Notes under the pieces: generated by a model
The model's input: the letters and a program-made list of their open reading frames with translations, nothing else
What the model was told of the DNA's origin: nothing
Databases searched by the model: none
Source of the DNA: a virus
Length of the DNA: 34,541 bases
IMG/VR virus record: IMGVR_UViG_3300031772_000146
Span: 1-34,541 of that record
Reading direction: 5' to 3' (one strand)
Program-made: the position numbers and the translations under genes
Shown here: one piece after another, positions 1 to 34,541 of the stretch
How the letters are laid out: every line of letters begins with the position of its first letter
Numbering within the stretch: position 1 is the first letter of the stretch

Positions 1-198
1 TTTGGTATAAAATTAAGGAGTTTCATCACTCTGGGAGAGAGAGCAAAGCCCAAAAGACTGATAACGAGTACTATCTGGAGCTAAAAAAATTTGTTGGAGA
101 TATTAAAATTAAGCAAATAATAATAGATCCTTCTGCTTCAAGTTTTGTGGCACTTATTAAAAAGTCCAACGATTTCAACGTAAAAAAAGCCAAAAATG
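1..198. repeat. Terminal direct repeat, left copy
   Basis: Identical to 34344-34541 except for C at 71 (T at 34414), a synonymous Tyr codon change. Shows that the window is a linearised circular map, or a terminally redundant molecule, opened inside terL. Confidence 0.95.
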
Positions 199-647
199 AC
201 GTACTTGCAGGCATAGCACAAGTTAATAGTTTTATAGCTTCTGACAATATTAAAATATTTAATACATGCAAAAAAACAATAGAAGAATTTGGAAAATATG
301 CATGGGATACGAAGGCAGGCGATGACACTCCGATAAAAGAAAACGACCACCATTGTCTTTTGGGGTCAACTCTAGTAGACACAGAGTTCGGACAAATTAA
401 AATATCTGATTTAGTCGGAAAAACAGGAAACGTAATTTGTTACGATGAAGCAAATGAAAAAGTTGTTACATCTCATTTTTATGACGTATGCAAAACAGGC
501 AATGAAGAAATATTTGAAATTGAGTTAGAGAATGGAAAAAAAATAGAGTGTACAGGAGACCACCCGATTCTAACAGATTTTGGTTGGGTGCGTGCCGATT
601 CTATCTCCAAACGGCATTCAGTACTTGATGTCAGACATTGTGTGTGA
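1..647 (+). CDS. terL: Terminase large subunit, C-terminal part of N-extein plus N-half of a split intein
   Basis: This is the continuation of the gene that begins at 33560; the two join across the 198-base terminal repeat, with the codon frame starting at position 3. Positions 3-353 encode residues 263-379 of the terminase, including the RNase H-like nuclease strand IIIDPSAS (Asp304). At codon 354-356 the protein changes abruptly into an intein: Cys1 in CLLGSTLVDTEFG (block A), then TGDHPIL with the block B T-x-x-H motif. The frame ends with TGA at 645-647, giving a 97-residue N-intein with no C-terminal splicing blocks. The extein stops at ENDHH, exactly where terminases carry the conserved H-x-x-D-x-LRY nuclease motif. 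The missing intein half and extein are encoded at 1211-1474. Inference: the protein is rebuilt by trans-splicing. Terminase identity and intein identity are both secure; splicing activity is inferred. Confidence 0.9.
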   Translation, partial: WYKIKEFHHSGRESKAQKTDNEYYLELKKFVGDIKIKQIIIDPSASSFVALIKKSNDFNVKKAKNDVLAGIAQVNSFIASDNIKIFNTCKKTIEEFGKYAWDTKAGDDTPIKENDHHCLLGSTLVDTEFGQIKISDLVGKTGNVICYDEANEKVVTSHFYDVCKTGNEEIFEIELENGKKIECTGDHPILTDFGWVRADSISKRHSVLDVRHCV

Positions 648-684
648 TACAATTATAATATCACGAAAAACACAGGAGGAAAAA

Positions 685-1317
685 ATGGTAGAGTATAAGA
701 ATAGCGGGAAGAATGCGATGCTAGACGGAATTCGCTTCACGAGAGATGAAAAAACACATTATTATTTGTCAACTACTAAAATTAAAAATAGTCGGAAAAG
801 ATTACATGTTTATGTTTGGGAAAGTAATAATAACGTAGTGCCTAGCGGTTTTGTTGTGCATCATATCGACCACGACAAAAGCAATAATAACTTAGATAAT
901 TTAAAAATAATATGTAAAAAGGAACATGGTGTATATCATACTAGCAAATTAACAAAAGAGCAAAAAGAAAAAAGGTTAGAATCTTTTTTAATTAATGCGT
1001 TGCCGAAAGCAGCAGCGTGGCACAGCACCGAGAAAGGCAAAAAATGGCACGGCGAGCACTCGAAACAAATTTGGGCAAATAAAAAAGAAGTCCCGCATAA
1101 ATGTGATTGTTGCAATAGTGTATTCATGTCAAAACGCCTAAAAAACAAGCGTAGTGTTTTTTGTTCAAACGCATGTAAATCCGCAGAAAGAAGGAAAAGT
1201 GGTGTAGATAATGAAACAAAATGTTGTGTTTTGTGTAACGGAAAATTCGAAACAAATAAATACGCAAGCAGGAAATATTGTAGCGAGTTATGTCGCAGTA
1301 AAAAAGGTAACACGTAA
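685..1317 (+). CDS. Free-standing HNH homing endonuclease between the intein halves
   Basis: A 210-residue protein starting at ATG 685, preceded by AGGAGG at 674-679. The open frame extends upstream to 580, but the strong ribosome site fixes this start. The centre has the HNH_3-type signature VVHHIDHDKSNNNLDNL with a downstream EHGVYH. The C-terminal half holds two Cys clusters, CDCC...CSNAC and CVLC...CSELC, each resembling a small zinc-binding treble clef. Families with this HNH form are homing endonucleases such as those in phage group I introns. Here the gene is in a different frame from both intein halves and has its own translation signals. It is therefore not an in-frame endonuclease domain. 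Its last 107 bases overlap the start of the C-intein frame. Likely role: cutting intein-less terL alleles to spread the element. Confidence 0.88.
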   Translation: MVEYKNSGKNAMLDGIRFTRDEKTHYYLSTTKIKNSRKRLHVYVWESNNNVVPSGFVVHHIDHDKSNNNLDNLKIICKKEHGVYHTSKLTKEQKEKRLESFLINALPKAAAWHSTEKGKKWHGEHSKQIWANKKEVPHKCDCCNSVFMSKRLKNKRSVFCSNACKSAERRKSGVDNETKCCVLCNGKFETNKYASRKYCSELCRSKKGNT

Positions 1318-1474
1318 AAATAAAGAGGATGTTTATAATATGACTGTAGCAAAATATCATAATTTTAGTGTTAACGGTGGGCTTATTGTAAGCAATTGTG
1401 ATAATCTTCGATATTTTGTCGCAACGAATGGTTTAGGATTGCCAAAAAGTTCATTAATTTTAACGAGGAGGTAA
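1211..1474 (+). CDS. terL: C-half of split intein plus 25-residue TerL C-extein
   Basis: An 87-residue frame. The intein C-terminal blocks are clear: VKKVTRKNKEDVYNMTV and YHNFSVNGGLIVSN (blocks F and G), ending in Asn at 1394-1396, followed by Cys+1 at 1397-1399. The penultimate residue is Ser instead of the usual His. The C-extein begins CDNLRYF and has 25 residues; its Asp is the third metal-binding residue of the terminase nuclease (the D of D-x-LRY). ATG 1211 is the only in-frame ATG upstream of the essential blocks. It has only a weak purine-rich stretch before it and lies inside the HNH gene, so translation is probably coupled to that gene. The first 25 or so residues have no intein counterpart and may be an overlap by-product. 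The portal ribosome site overlaps the stop codon. Confidence 0.85.
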   Translation: MKQNVVFCVTENSKQINTQAGNIVASYVAVKKVTRKNKEDVYNMTVAKYHNFSVNGGLIVSNCDNLRYFVATNGLGLPKSSLILTRR

Positions 1475-1477
1475 ACA

Positions 1478-2845
1478 ATGCATACTTTTCAAGATTTTGA
1501 AAAACTAACTTCGGAATTTGATAGACAACAATTTTTATTAGCGACGGTTACGGGGTTTCAAAGCGGCGAAGAATATAAAAATATGATAATTGCTGGCAAG
1601 TATTTTAATAGTGATAACATTTCAGTTTTGGATAGAGAAAAATTTACAGTAAAAACGCTAGATAGAGAATTTACAGTGTCAAAACAAATAGCGTCATCAA
1701 ATTTCTTTTTTAGACTTGTAACGCAACAAAACCAGTTTTTATTGGCAAACGGATTACAAATAGACAACGACAGCGAAAAAAACAAACTTGGTTTGGGGTT
1801 CGATACGAAACTCCAGGAAGCGGGAGAATTGGCTCTGGTTCACGGTATTAGCTGGATTTTTTACAACAGCGACCACGTGGAATTAATTCCAGCGACACAA
1901 TTTATACCGTTGTATGACGAATTTTCCAGCGAACCGTTGGCAGGAATTAACTTTTGGCAGCTAGACGAAACACGACCTGTTTATATAAGACTATTTGAAA
2001 TTGACGGTATTTCCTGGTATAAAATAACAAAAGATTCAAGAGAGCCGAACAAAAAAAACATAGAGTTGTATAAGGAAAAAGAATCATATGTTAAAGTTGT
2101 GCAAAATAATATATTAATAGATAATAAAAACTATGATAATCTGTTTCCTGTTGTCTCACTAAAAGCCAACGAAAACGCAGCTAGTGAGCTTAAAACAGCT
2201 ATAAAGACAAAAATAGATATGTATGATTTAGTATTGTCTGATTTTAGTGACAATCTACAGAAAACAAATTCCATATATTGGTTGATTGAGAATTTTAATG
2301 GGGACGCAACGGACGCCGATTTGTTGAGAGCTCAAATAGAAGATTACAAAATGATATTTACAAAAGATGAGGGGCAAAAAGCATCTGGCGAGTTTATGCA
2401 AGTGCCTTATGAAGCTCGTGCCGTAATTCTCGAACTCTTAGAATCTGGTATATACCGAGATTTTATGGGGCTTAACATGAAAGAAATCACGGGCGGAGCG
2501 TTGACCAACGTGGCTATAGACACGGCAAAATTTAATCTAGTAAACAAAGTAAACCGTTACGAATATAGAGTGTTCGAAACTTGTCAAAAGTTGTTAGCCC
2601 TTGCGGGTATAAAAACAGAGAATATTAGATTTAGGCGTGAGTTTATAGCAAACAAATATGAAACTATGCAAATGTTGTACATGTGTCGTGCTGATTTAGA
2701 CTTGACCACAGCACTCGAAAAAAATCCGCTTGTCGAAATGGATGAAGTTAGTATAATACTAGAAAGAATTGAAGAAGAAGAAACTTACAACGGCGGAAAT
2801 GAAATACCTCAAATTCCAGATGTCGAGAATGCACAAAATGAGTAA
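1478..2845 (+). CDS. Portal protein (SPP1 gp6-like)
   Basis: A 455-residue protein starting 3 bases after the C-extein stop, with GAGGAGG directly upstream. Length, position between terminase and MuF-type protein, and features such as the early QFLLANGLQIDN stretch and the acidic C-terminus fit the SPP1 gp6 portal family. This forms the dodecameric channel at one vertex through which terminase pumps DNA. The long central helical region (residues about 240-380) matches the stem/crown part of portals. Inference rests on family-like sequence and gene order; no short catalytic motif exists for portals. It overlaps the next gene by 8 bases, a sign of translational coupling. Confidence 0.85.
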   Translation: MHTFQDFEKLTSEFDRQQFLLATVTGFQSGEEYKNMIIAGKYFNSDNISVLDREKFTVKTLDREFTVSKQIASSNFFFRLVTQQNQFLLANGLQIDNDSEKNKLGLGFDTKLQEAGELALVHGISWIFYNSDHVELIPATQFIPLYDEFSSEPLAGINFWQLDETRPVYIRLFEIDGISWYKITKDSREPNKKNIELYKEKESYVKVVQNNILIDNKNYDNLFPVVSLKANENAASELKTAIKTKIDMYDLVLSDFSDNLQKTNSIYWLIENFNGDATDADLLRAQIEDYKMIFTKDEGQKASGEFMQVPYEARAVILELLESGIYRDFMGLNMKEITGGALTNVAIDTAKFNLVNKVNRYEYRVFETCQKLLALAGIKTENIRFRREFIANKYETMQMLYMCRADLDLTTALEKNPLVEMDEVSIILERIEEEETYNGGNEIPQIPDVENAQNE

Positions 2846-3680
2846 CCTTGTCAAGGATTTAGAGAAAAAACTCGCTGCATTGTACACGAACGCAACTAAA
2901 AAAATAGATAATATTTTGAGTGATATAGATTTTAATAGCTACACGCAAGATGATATAAATGACGTTGTTGCACAGATAAAAAAAAATAAAAACGCTATCG
3001 TTAGTGAGATAGCTTCGGCGGGAAATAATGCGAGAAGTGCGATGGACAACAACAGTTTACGACTTTATAAGCAAAGTTATTTACAATCACTAAATGATTT
3101 TAACAAAAAAATTGGTCATAATCTGGATTGGGACATTCCAAACAATGAAGAATTCGAAAGAATGCTAGAAAAAGAAATTAATATCTATGATAGGAAAGCC
3201 GCTGCAAATTTGAGCGATAAAAATATTATCAATAGACGTTTTGAGAATGCGTTGATTGCTGTTGTTGTCGCAAAGGTAGCCATAAACAAGATAAAAAAGG
3301 AAATAACAGACAAAACCGTTCGCCGAGGTTGGAACGATTCTACCAGACTAGCAAGAACAAAAAGCACAGGCATTTTAAACGGTGCTAGATTCGAAGGTTT
3401 TAATAATGCCGAAAAAATGGGAATCAGAGGTGTGAAAAAGTGGGTTTCCACATACGACGGGAGAACTCGGATGAGCCATGTATGGATGCAAGCTCAAAAA
3501 GAAGAATTGAATGATATTTTTGCAAATGAATGTATGTATCCCCGTGACCCGAATGGGCCTCCAGGTGAAGTTGTCAACTGTCGTTGTACTGTTTCTTACG
3601 TGATGGAAGGTTCGCAAGAGTTTAATTATAGCATTTACGAAGGCGACGATTTAGAAGAACTTTTGGAGGAGGTAGATTAA
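2838..3680 (+). CDS. Minor head protein, phage Mu gpF / SPP1 gp7 family
   Basis: About 280 residues. I chose ATG 2838, which overlaps the portal stop (ATGAGTAA). ATG 2829 is equally possible, and an upstream TTG at 2769 is less likely because it would add residues that overlap portal. The N-terminal half is helical. The C-terminal quarter has the MuF signature: STYDGRTRMSHVWMQAQ, then PRDPNGPPGEVVNCRCTV (residues about 210-265). Proteins of this family sit inside the head near the portal and are ejected or assist DNA delivery. No toxin domain is fused to its C-terminus, which ends shortly after the MuF motif. Confidence 0.85.
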   Translation: MSNLVKDLEKKLAALYTNATKKIDNILSDIDFNSYTQDDINDVVAQIKKNKNAIVSEIASAGNNARSAMDNNSLRLYKQSYLQSLNDFNKKIGHNLDWDIPNNEEFERMLEKEINIYDRKAAANLSDKNIINRRFENALIAVVVAKVAINKIKKEITDKTVRRGWNDSTRLARTKSTGILNGARFEGFNNAEKMGIRGVKKWVSTYDGRTRMSHVWMQAQKEELNDIFANECMYPRDPNGPPGEVVNCRCTVSYVMEGSQEFNYSIYEGDDLEELLEEVD

Positions 3681-22347: not shown

Positions 22348-23691
22348 TTAATAAAAATTGATATCAATAAATTTATTGTATTCTTTTTTAAATCCTAGTT
22401 TAATTTCGCCAACGGGACCATTCCGCTGCTTAGCGATAATTATTTCAATTGTATTTTGATCCTCGGTTTCCTTATCATAGTAATCATCTCTATATAAGAA
22501 TGCAACAATGTCAGCGTCTTGCTCTATACTTCCCGATTCTCTGATGTCAGACATAATAGGTCGTTTATCTTGTCGCAACTCTACGCCACGTGACAGTTGC
22601 GACAAAGCAATTATTGGAACATCTAGTTCTCTAGCAAGTCCTTTAAGCTGCCTTGATAGATCAGAAACTTCCTGCTGTCTATTTCCTGACTTGCTAGAGT
22701 TGCAGTGTATTAGTTGCAAGTAGTCAATAACTATCATGTCTAATGCGTTTTCCTGCTTCAATCGTCGTGTTTTTGCGATAATTTCACTAGTTTTTATACC
22801 TGCCGAATCATCAATATAAATGTTTGTTTTTGATAAACAAGCAACCGCCATAGTCAGGTTTTTCCAGTCATTGTCATCTAATTTACCCGTTCGCAGTTTT
22901 TGCAATTCTATGTTGCCTTCGGTCGCCAAAAGTCGCATTGCGAGCTGTTCCGCTGACATTTCCAAGCTAAATATTGCAACATGGTAGTTCTCTGGTTGCT
23001 TTGCCACATTTTTTGCAATATTTAAAGCGAAAGCAGTTTTTCCGACTGACGGACGAGCTCCGACAATAATTAAATCGCTTTTTTGGAATCCTGCAGTCAG
23101 ATTGTCTAAACTCTTAAAACCTGTTGCTAGTCCTGTTATTCCGCCTTTTTTCAGATGTAGTTGTTCGATTTTGTCGTAAGTGTCAAGCAAAACTTTTGGC
23201 AGTTTGTCAAATGTGCTTGTATTTTTTCTTTTTGCTACTGATAAAATTTTTCTTTCTGCGTCATCTAGCAATGTATCTAGTTCGTCTTGCCTAGTATAAC
23301 ACTCCTGAACTATTTCAGTTGCAACAGTCATAAGATGCCTCAACGTTGCTTTATTAAAAACTATTTCAGCATAATAACTAATGTTTGCTGCAGTAGGTAC
23401 AGCCATGGCTAACTCGGTTAAATACGACATTCCGCCAATTTCTTCTAAATAATTCTGGGACTTTAGTCGCTCTGCTACTGTAACAATATCCACACCTTTT
23501 TGCTCATCAAACAAAGCTTTCATACATGAATATACTCTTTGATGTGCAAGTTGATAAAAATCATCATCTTGTATAATTCGACTCGTTACCTCAAAAGATT
23601 TAGGCTCCAAAAAAATAGCACCTAAAACCGATTGCTCTGCCTCTATACTTTGCGGTGGTAAAAAATTACTTGCATTTTTATTTGTGTTCAT
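22348..23691 (-). CDS. dnaB: Replicative DNA helicase, DnaB family
   Basis: A 447-residue protein, AAGGAGA before ATG 23691. The N-terminal domain (LPPQSIEAEQSVLGAIF) binds primase. The RecA-like motor holds Walker A GARPSVGKT (residues 211-219), Walker B VIDYLQL (Asp323) and the late RESGSIEQDADIV and AKQRNGP motifs. It is full length for the family (about 450). It would unwind the fork after loading by the G39P-like protein encoded at 25927. The gene is transcribed leftward with ssb, opposite to the initiator and loader. Confidence 0.97.
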   Translation of the reverse strand: MNTNKNASNFLPPQSIEAEQSVLGAIFLEPKSFEVTSRIIQDDDFYQLAHQRVYSCMKALFDEQKGVDIVTVAERLKSQNYLEEIGGMSYLTELAMAVPTAANISYYAEIVFNKATLRHLMTVATEIVQECYTRQDELDTLLDDAERKILSVAKRKNTSTFDKLPKVLLDTYDKIEQLHLKKGGITGLATGFKSLDNLTAGFQKSDLIIVGARPSVGKTAFALNIAKNVAKQPENYHVAIFSLEMSAEQLAMRLLATEGNIELQKLRTGKLDDNDWKNLTMAVACLSKTNIYIDDSAGIKTSEIIAKTRRLKQENALDMIVIDYLQLIHCNSSKSGNRQQEVSDLSRQLKGLARELDVPIIALSQLSRGVELRQDKRPIMSDIRESGSIEQDADIVAFLYRDDYYDKETEDQNTIEIIIAKQRNGPVGEIKLGFKKEYNKFIDINFY

Positions 23692-26711: not shown

Positions 26712-27377
26712 ATGATAAGCAAAAAAGAAATTGATGACGCATTAAAAACATTTATAGTTGACGAAAAAGCACGAAAGTTGTCAGATTTTAAATATTATAC
26801 AGCTTGTCGACGGGAATACGACACAATTCAAAACGCACTTGACAAACTAAATTTAACAGAAATTTATCAAAATAATAAATACAACACATCCGTTGACAAA
26901 TTTGGAAAAATCAAGTATACTAACGATTTTTTAAAAAAACAAGTTGAGGATTTTTATGCTGAAAAAGGCGATGAAGCAAGGACGCGAGAATTTAAATATT
27001 ATGCAATTATTCGATATCGTTTTGGAAGTTACGAGGCAGGTATAAAAGCACTTAACGCAGACGTTGACATAAAAAAATATTCGTCAGGTTTTGCGGAAAA
27101 TGTGACAAACGAAGAAATTAAAAACGAATACAAAGAATACTTATTAAAAAAAATCAATGGGGAAGATGCTAATTTTGCAAGGAGGACACTAGCTATGTAT
27201 CGTTTTGGAACAACACAAATCGCAATGGAAACAATGCAAATTTATGCGTTAGATTTGCTTGAAAAAGTTAAAAGAATTGTAGAAAAAAGGAAGCATGGAA
27301 AAATGACGAAAAAAGAGGAAGAATTTATTAATTATTTAAGTAGCAGTATTTCAGATTTTGTAAAAAAAAATTATTAA
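26712..27377 (+). CDS. Protein with homing-endonuclease-associated (HNH) repeats, no nuclease domain
   Basis: A 221-residue, basic protein. It holds about three diverged copies of a 25-50 residue DNA-binding repeat: FKYYTACRREYDTIQNAL (residues about 25-43), FKYYAIIRYRFGSYEAGIKA (about 95-115) and RRTLAMYRFGTTQIAM (about 155-170). The R-[YF]-G-[ST]-x-x-x-A core is that of homing endonuclease-associated repeats, which help HNH enzymes recognise DNA. No HNH, GIY-YIG or other catalytic motif is present. It may be a free-standing DNA-binding regulator. It starts at ATG 26712 with a weak ribosome site (AGGCAGG). Confidence 0.6.
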   Translation: MISKKEIDDALKTFIVDEKARKLSDFKYYTACRREYDTIQNALDKLNLTEIYQNNKYNTSVDKFGKIKYTNDFLKKQVEDFYAEKGDEARTREFKYYAIIRYRFGSYEAGIKALNADVDIKKYSSGFAENVTNEEIKNEYKEYLLKKINGEDANFARRTLAMYRFGTTQIAMETMQIYALDLLEKVKRIVEKRKHGKMTKKEEEFINYLSSSISDFVKKNY

Positions 27378-31610: not shown

Positions 31611-32574
31611 ATGTTAAAATGTGCTAGTTTTTTTGCGGGAATTGGTGGTATAGATTTAGGTTTTGAGAAGGCAGGTTTTAAAACAATATTTGCTAATGAG
31701 TTTGACAAAAAAAGCAAACGTGACGTATACAGCAAATTTTCCGGAAACGGAATTAAATGTAAATGATATAAGAAATATAGATGTAAACAGTATACCAGAT
31801 TTTGATGTAATGCTTGCTGGTTTTCCGTGCCAACCATTTTCCCAAGCGGGGCTACGGCAGGGTTTTGACGATGAAAAAGGTCGTGGAAATCTAGTTTTTG
31901 ATTTAATTAGAATTGCAAAACAGAAAAAGCCAAAAGTTTTATTTTTTGAAAATGTTAAGAATTTGAAAAATCATGACGAAGGAAAAACATTAAAAACTAT
32001 AATAAGTGTGCTGGAAAAAGAGCTGGGATATTTTGTTATAAACAAAGTTTTTAATACTTGTGAATATACAAATATCCCTCAAAATCGAGAAAGAATAATC
32101 ATTATTGCTTTTAAAAATAAAGTTGATTTTGAAAAATTTGAGTGGATAGAACCTATTAAACTAGAAAATAAAATACACGATTTTATAGATTTCGAAAATG
32201 AACAAGATGAAAAATATTACTATAAAGATAAAAAGTATAAAATTTTGTATGAAAAAGTAATGTCAAGCAGCACAGTTTTTATGTGGCGAAGAGCTGATTG
32301 TGTAAGGGAAAACAAAAAAAATATGTGTCCATGCCTGCTTGCGTCGATGGGTGAAGGTGGAAATAATGTGCCAATTATTAAAACATTTGGAGGTGACATA
32401 AGAAAATTAACAGAAAGAGAGTGTTTCAATTTGCAAGGATTTCCACAAGATTTTATTCTTCCTAAAAATTTATCAAGCTGTTCGTTGTATAAACAAGCAG
32501 GGAACAGCGTTACTGTAAATTTGATAAAAAGATTAGCTAAAAAAATATTACAAACTATAGATTGCACAAATTAA
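31611..32574 (+). CDS. C5-cytosine DNA methyltransferase, frame interrupted at an A7 run
   Basis: The true start is ATG 31611 (GGAGG upstream): CASFFAGIGGIDLGFEKAGF is motif I with the S-adenosylmethionine loop. This frame fails after the run of seven A at 31707-31713. In the +1 frame the protein continues correctly (TANFPETELNVNDIRNID) with motif IV GFPCQPFSQAG (catalytic Cys near residue 73), FFENVKNL (motif VI), QNRERIII (motif VIII), a target region of about 130 residues, ERECFNLQGFPQDF (motif IX) and KQAGNSVTVNLI (motif X). With six A instead of seven the gene would be intact, about 320 residues. Slippage, phase variation or a base-calling error are possible. It would protect phage DNA from host restriction. 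Confidence 0.88.
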
Positions 32575-33559: not shown

Positions 33560-34541
33560 ATGCACAAAACTAAAAAAATAGAGCTATCTACTAAACAATT
33601 AGATTTTTTAAGATGTTGTAATCATCGTTACAACGGTAAAATCGGAGCTACAAGATGTGGCAAAACGTGGCTAGATACAGCTATTTTAATACCGCAAAGA
33701 ATTATAGAAAGAAAAGGGAAAGCTGGCATCAACATACTTTTAGGAGTTTCGAAGGGAACAATTGAGCGGAATATTCTGGAACCAATGCGTAATTTCCACG
33801 GAACTCATTTAGTATCAGAGATTAATAGTCAAAACAAAGCAACATTGTTTGGGGAAGTGGTTTATTGCATCGGTGCGGAAAAAGTGTCACAAGTTTCAAA
33901 GCTGCGGGGAGCAGAATTTAAATATTGCTATTGTGACGAGCTAGTAGATTTTAACGAAGAGGTATTCCAGATTTTAAAATCGAGATTGAGTACTGAGTAT
34001 TCCGTTTGTGATTTTACAGGAAATCCCTCATTTCCAGACCATTTTGTAAAAAAATTTATTGAGTCGGAAGCAGATGTTTATTGTCAAAATTGGACTTTGT
34101 ACGATAATCCTTTTTTGCCAAAAGACTTTGTAAAAAATTTGGAAATTGAGTATAAAGACACTGTGTATTATGATAGATACGTTTTAGGCATGTGGAAAAA
34201 AGCAGAAGGATTAATATTTCCAAACTATGAAAATAGTATAATGGAACCTTTTGAACAAAAATATAGAGAGTTCCAGGTTGCGATTGACTACGGAATACAA
34301 AATCCTTTTACGATGGGACTTTTTGGTTTAGGGGCAAATAACGTTTGGTATAAAATTAAGGAGTTTCATCACTCTGGGAGAGAGAGCAAAGCCCAAAAGA
34401 CTGATAACGAGTATTATCTGGAGCTAAAAAAATTTGTTGGAGATATTAAAATTAAGCAAATAATAATAGATCCTTCTGCTTCAAGTTTTGTGGCACTTAT
34501 TAAAAAGTCCAACGATTTCAACGTAAAAAAAGCCAAAAATG
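33560..34541 (+). CDS. terL: Terminase large subunit, N-terminal part (continues at position 1)
   Basis: ATG 33560 starts the ATPase half of TerL; the frame is open to the window end and continues at position 3 after the terminal repeat. Walker A is GATRCGKT (residues 29-36), Walker B is YCYCDEL (Asp126, Glu127), and the coupling motif follows (DFTGNPSFPDHF). The nuclease domain begins with QVAIDYGIQNP, Asp243 being the first metal ligand. The complete extein would be 379 + 25 = 404 residues, normal for this Gram-positive terminase group. The ribosome site is weak (TTGGA), and a second ATG at 33550 is out of frame. TerL docks on the portal, pumps DNA and cuts it at headful. Confidence 0.92.
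   Translation, partial: MHKTKKIELSTKQLDFLRCCNHRYNGKIGATRCGKTWLDTAILIPQRIIERKGKAGINILLGVSKGTIERNILEPMRNFHGTHLVSEINSQNKATLFGEVVYCIGAEKVSQVSKLRGAEFKYCYCDELVDFNEEVFQILKSRLSTEYSVCDFTGNPSFPDHFVKKFIESEADVYCQNWTLYDNPFLPKDFVKNLEIEYKDTVYYDRYVLGMWKKAEGLIFPNYENSIMEPFEQKYREFQVAIDYGIQNPFTMGLFGLGANNVWYKIKEFHHSGRESKAQKTDNEYYLELKKFVGDIKIKQIIIDPSASSFVALIKKSNDFNVKKAKN
34344..34541. repeat. Terminal direct repeat, right copy
   Basis: The second copy of the 198-base terminal repeat; see 1-198. Joining the copies restores one continuous terL frame, which supports true circularity over chance duplication. Confidence 0.95.

Follow-up and report, generated by a model that had tools for sequence, protein, structure and literature searches.

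Analysis of the window, that is the whole 34,541-nucleotide stretch of viral DNA in IMG/VR record IMGVR_UViG_3300031772_000146, revealed that its terL gene, encoding the terminase large subunit TerL, is interrupted by two apparent intein halves with an HNH_3-type endonuclease gene between them (Table 1). The open terL frame (3-644) carries the N-intein, headed by Cys1 directly after NDHH, and ends at a TGA stop; the C-intein, ending in Asn and followed by Cys+1, is joined to the end of TerL in another frame (1211-1474), so that the N-half, the HNH gene and the C-half occupy three different frames. The first and last 198 nucleotides of the window (1-198 and 34344-34541) are identical except for one mismatch (position 71), which places the missing 5' part of terL at the right-hand end and identifies the record as a circular or circularly permuted genome of ~34.3 kb whose ends were left unjoined. 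The exteins joined in silico give an uninterrupted TerL of 404 residues, the length anticipated in a preliminary description of this DNA, and the N-extein matches TerL in PDB entry 5oe8 at 2.1e-36 (profile A1). The interruption lies inside the conserved motif DHxxDALRY, which probably contains catalytic residues of the TerL nuclease.

Table 1. Features of the interrupted terL gene in the window
Feature	Position	Strand	Basis and remarks
terL N-extein, 5' part	33560..34541	+	ATG 33560; continues at window 1; terminal repeat, bridging contig L177, TerL translation
terL N-extein, nuclease domain, ending ..KENDHH	3..353	+	phrog_10250 1.3e-25, TIGR01547 7.6e-10
N-intein, 97 residues	354..644	+	Cys1 (354-356), block A, T-G-D-H block B; Intein_splicing (Pfam) 1.5e-10, TIGR01445 4.4e-11
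Stop codon of N-half	645..647		TGA
Noncoding spacer, 37 nucleotides	648..684		between N-half stop and HNH gene
Shine-Dalgarno sequence of HNH gene	674..679	+	AGGAGG, five bases before its ATG
HNH_3-type endonuclease gene, 210 residues	685..1317	+	HNH_3 7.4e-11, phrog_15471 1.7e-36; C-terminal CxxC zinc-finger-like motifs
C-half start (probable)	1201..1213	+	GGTG 1201-1204, ATG 1211-1213; both overprint the HNH codons of GVDNE (ggt gta gat aat gaa)
HNH/C-intein gene overlap, 107 nucleotides	1211..1317	+	different frames; 1292-1317 inside conserved C-intein domain
C-intein reading frame	1211..1396	+	conserved domain 1292-1396 (blocks F, G, ..IVSN); terminal Asn 1394-1396
terL C-extein, 25 residues, then stop	1397..1474	+	CDNLRYF...; Cys+1 1397-1399

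The preliminary description had read this region as an N-intein closed by a stop codon, an HNH gene with its own ribosome site after ~37 noncoding bases, and a third-frame C-intein with Ser-Asn and Cys+1 that begins within the endonuclease gene, and each of these elements was confirmed. The C-half frame matches Intein_splicing (8.6e-5, under the curated Pfam cut-off, as for half a domain), TIGR01443 (8e-5) and phrog_28563 (1.6e-12). The last is a PHROG of unknown function whose profile matches the C-intein plus the C-terminal residues of TerL, and its length of 98 equals that of gp3 of Brochothrix phage BL3. The split had been said to fall if the halves could be joined into one frame. Stops are abundant (dozens) across the region in the N frame as well as in the C frame, so that a single sequencing error cannot account for the split, and a separate contig, IMGVR_UViG_3300031885_000531, aligns without a gap over 5081 bases that include the junctions, differing by 2 mismatches; it keeps the split and bridges the ends of the window. 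Assembly or sequencing error as the cause of the split was ruled out by this contig and the number of stops.

The halves in the window align end to end with L099, a contiguous mini-intein whose insertion region is the same (47% over 93 residues for one half, 53% over 34 residues for the other). Its AlphaFold2 model, taken as a stand-in for the window halves rather than a model of these halves as one chain, has a predicted local distance difference test score (pLDDT) of 94.8 and a predicted Hint fold, with the Ssp DnaB, Npu DnaE, Mtu RecA and NrdJ-1 inteins as its best PDB matches. Three sequence features expected of a naturally split intein were found in the window: a Cys1 N-intein closed by a stop, a C-intein on a separate frame and exteins that join without interruption. 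In the HNH protein the active-site residues HH, D, NN, N and H are invariant (columns of alignment A3); a sequence search for solved structures returned no match for it.

To survey relatives, we scanned IMG/VR with HNH, N-intein and C-intein alignments, searched GenBank phages by tblastn and scanned bacterial genome contigs once. IMG/VR and the GenBank phages yielded 158 distinct N-intein to C-intein regions, and the bacterial genome contigs 3 further pairs. About 70 of the loci are split, and nearly all of these have a relative of the window HNH between the halves; all 54 of 54 members of the overlapping split class have Cys1, and all have Asn-Cys or Asn-Ser. Most insertions are at or beside the DHxxDALRY motif. 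Lactobacillus phage CL2 has the same split arrangement as the window, while Brochothrix phage BL3 is split with only the zinc-finger end of the HNH left, and split forms also occur in Staphylococcus borealis and in a Clostridiales metagenome-assembled genome. In GenBank neither the CL2 nor the BL3 terL is annotated as containing an intein, and the CL2 C-half is unannotated. Split loci have a lower GC content than contiguous ones (0.43 versus 0.47). Among further variants, L152 and L154 are split TerL inteins whose intervening HNH gene is on the opposite strand, and L275 (4676-5352, from a Neisseriaceae metagenome-assembled genome) is a split TerL intein whose HNH gene is broken over frames. 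Exiguobacterium phage vB_EauM-23 (L006, ~2776-3650) has its terL interrupted between NNHSM and DATRYA, roughly two codons from the intein site, by an intervening sequence that holds an HNH relative; this sequence has neither intein motifs nor an Rfam match at gathering or E ≤1. It is possibly an unrecognised intron, the same enzyme family travelling in a different vehicle.

Internal start signals recur among the split loci. Of 71 split loci, 44 have a C-half start with a Shine-Dalgarno match of at least 5; the corresponding position shows such a match in 6 of 67 contiguous loci (Fisher 4e-11). The HNH start of split loci has a match of at least 4 in 58/69. The portion of the overlap that falls in the conserved C-intein domain measures 26 nucleotides in the window and has a median of 23 nucleotides over 57 split loci. 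Selection fixing the AAT codon behind the C-half ATG (GVDNE motif) was considered and set aside: it is present in 15/16 versus 11.1 expected from each gene's own Asn codons, which is suggestive only.

The overlap between HNH and C-intein ties the window, beyond what the preliminary description had noted, to a large family of TerL inteins, and its arrangement is no isolated case. A single open frame spans terL and the complete intein in Acinetobacter phage Highwayman, Tetrasphaera phage TJE1 and Rhodobacteraceae phage LS06-2018-MD07, and it contains the gene for the same HNH, read in the -1 frame. By script, 67 contiguous loci overlap in this way, 60 in the -1 register and 7 in the other, and an HNH match in frame with the intein was seen at only 2 loci. 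Among the best 80 HNH relatives in IMG/VR, 57 are overlapping, 9 are split and 14 are without a recognised intein pair. When synonymous codons were shuffled within each HNH gene, the 60 loci were expected to hold 1.96 stops on average in the intein frame and none was seen (median probability of zero stops 0.06; ln P summed over the loci -179, which is overstated because the loci are related). In the second register ~10.7 stops were expected at each of the 7 loci and none was seen, a result that is strong one by one. These latter loci (L064, L071, L082, L091, L095, L163 and L164), in which the HNH lies in the +1 frame, are apparently an independent overlapping arrangement.

Mean pairwise identity is 37% in the HNH frame and 20% in the other frame, indicating that the HNH is the constrained protein while the intein frame is merely kept open. 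The predicted model of an overlapping intein (L037) has pLDDT ~97 in its Hint parts and <50 over 182 out-of-frame residues, and its Foldseek alignment to intein structures spans the out-of-frame gap; as modelled, the Hint domain is intact and the out-of-frame linker disordered. We consider it likely that phage TerL inteins form a large family with an overprinted homing endonuclease, in which the HNH takes the place where an intein endonuclease normally lies but is read in a different frame, and the same DNA encodes both the HNH and a disordered linker removed by splicing. Split forms such as that in the window would be one state of this family, and gain or loss of the HNH would toggle between split and contiguous.

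Pairs of genomes with and without the insert occur naturally. Phages CL1 and CL2 are 99.8% identical on the left side of the site and 99.9% on the right; the site is unoccupied in CL1 (..HDHGLDATRYF) and holds a 1.0-kb insert in CL2, so that the comparison with intein-less relatives proposed in the preliminary description is provided by CL1 as the empty allele of CL2. The source of the CL2 isolate was a commercial L. paracasei culture, and phage counts were used to track its survival (PMC6563197). Given that it was followed by phage counts, a phage with a split terL is infectious, and this infectivity together with the near-identity around the insert points to a mobile element compatible with a working terminase. 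Trans-splicing would account for the infectivity of CL2. In a second pair, with flanks 96-97% identical, L115 is split with an HNH and L116 is a contiguous mini-intein without the 650-bp HNH module; in another frame L116 retains codons resembling the tail of the L115 HNH (CEKHR..DRV-stop), which fits loss of the HNH, the direction not being proven. Site-specific presence and absence together with its vehicle, as expected of an HNH homing endonuclease, is thus seen in both pairs.

Gene anatomy, residue conservation, presence/absence pairs and overlap, all read from sequence, support a split intein in the window terL, and the best explanation as a whole is very probably a mobile, naturally split terL intein with an HNH homing endonuclease gene between, and partly overlapping, its halves. 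Translation would give three products: TerL-N fused to the N-intein, the HNH enzyme starting at its own ribosome site, and a fusion of C-intein and TerL-C initiated within the HNH gene. The intein halves would associate into a Hint domain, and Cys1, the block B His, the terminal Asn and Cys+1 would ligate NDHH to CDNLRY, yielding the 404-residue TerL. The HNH enzyme would cut intein-free terL alleles at the conserved site, and repair would copy in the whole element. The HNH/C-intein overlap would reflect a tendency throughout the family for the HNH to be encoded in another intein frame: an intein frame that remains open through the HNH gene would give a contiguous intein, and one that does not would give a split intein. 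Several points weigh against this account. The Shine-Dalgarno match of the C-half start in the window is only 4 bases, and the penultimate residue of the C-intein is Ser instead of the usual His, though other members have the same. The shuffle test counts related loci as independent. In a tree of 122 columns most split and most overlapping forms fall in separate groups, but the tree is poorly resolved and leaves the order of the split, overlapping and mini states unsettled; a direction of evolution from it was dropped, since 122 columns cannot resolve it. Translation starts, trans-splicing, cleavage and homing are inferred from the sequence features.

Other explanations of the insert were weighed. 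A group I intron carrying the HNH gene, with an accidental resemblance to an intein, would agree with the frequency of HNH_3 enzymes in phage introns and with vB_EauM-23, where an HNH relative lies near the same terL codons in an insert without intein motifs. The window gave no Rfam match at gathering or E ≤1, its N- and C-intein motifs are complete with invariant catalytic residues, its non-coding part is 37 nucleotides only, and contiguous intein homologues exist; the intron, which the preliminary description had already judged a poor fit, was rejected and has a negligible probability. That the insert is a decayed intein or an assembly error, leaving terL broken and the phage defective, could be suspected from a metagenomic record and a low-GC region. 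It is very improbable in view of dozens of stops rather than one frameshift, the near-identical contig, the catalytic residues kept at ~70 other split loci and the same arrangement in infectious CL2.

Alternatively, the terminase might work in two pieces held by the intein domains without peptide ligation, as reported for a nucleotide reductase gene split by a homing endonuclease. Functional genes in pieces do exist (PMC10448857), but a two-piece terminase leaves the conservation of Cys1 and Asn-Cys/Ser unexplained and its C-piece would hold 25 extein residues only, making this improbable. The HNH could also be a packaging cofactor beside terL and no homing enzyme, since some phage HNH proteins assist terminases (cited in PMC11855218) and relatives stand free beside terL or terS in other phages; the CL1/CL2 and L115/L116 pairs and the loss of the HNH in BL3 and the mini-inteins make a cofactor unlikely. 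The family offers a simple route to the origin of split inteins: once an endonuclease gene overlaps the intein out of frame and has a start of its own, the central part of the intein frame is no longer needed. It is also a ready source of new split inteins, it gives phrog_28563 a possible explanation, and it calls for terL annotations to be re-read. As CL1 and CL2 are isolated phages, trans-splicing and homing are directly testable.

Related systems share parts of this arrangement. In 2009 Dassa et al. (cited in PMC10448857) reportedly described fractured genes, in which split inteins accompany a stand-alone endonuclease of a Vsr-like family. These have the same order as the window, N-extein/N-intein, endonuclease gene, C-intein/C-extein, with the endonuclease gene between the halves; the window differs in its host gene terL, in a C-intein gene overlapping the endonuclease in another frame, and in an endonuclease that is HNH_3-type and so not Vsr-like, a trait that is perhaps not definitional. 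AceL-TerL, likewise a split intein in a terminase large subunit, is said to be atypically split with a very short N-part, whereas the window breaks at the usual endonuclease position, after ~97 residues. AceL-TerL is mentioned in PMC11766414. Pseudomonas jumbo phage MIJ3 has a split PolB intein with an HNH gene, orf154, between the halves (PMC6892783), sharing with the window a phage, a split intein and an intervening HNH gene; its host gene is another one, and the available part of that report describes no overlap and no contiguous out-of-frame relatives. The ShiLan domain of phage methylases conceals an HNH in another frame and has no self-splicing element (PMC11855218). It resembles the TerL family in an HNH placed in another frame of a host-open insert, in a zinc-finger-flanked HNH and in a disjunct distribution, and differs in that the TerL overlap lies inside a Hint intein able to remove the out-of-frame linker. 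Fractured genes and out-of-frame HNH insertions are each already published. In the searchable papers we found none describing out-of-frame HNH genes in TerL inteins or their link to split forms; a preprint (10.1101/2025.01.02.630785, 'Actinobacteriophage inteins ... non-canonical architecture', cited in PMC11855218) may do so.

Elsewhere in the window, a DnaB helicase gene on the minus strand (22348-23691) is without an intein, and a C-5 cytosine DNA methylase (7.7e-69) is encoded at 31663-32574, upstream of the terminase region. The protein encoded at 26712-27377 has a weak match to a homing-endonuclease-associated repeat (HNH_repeat 2.8e-4, below cut-off), and this genome may thus carry a second mobile element.
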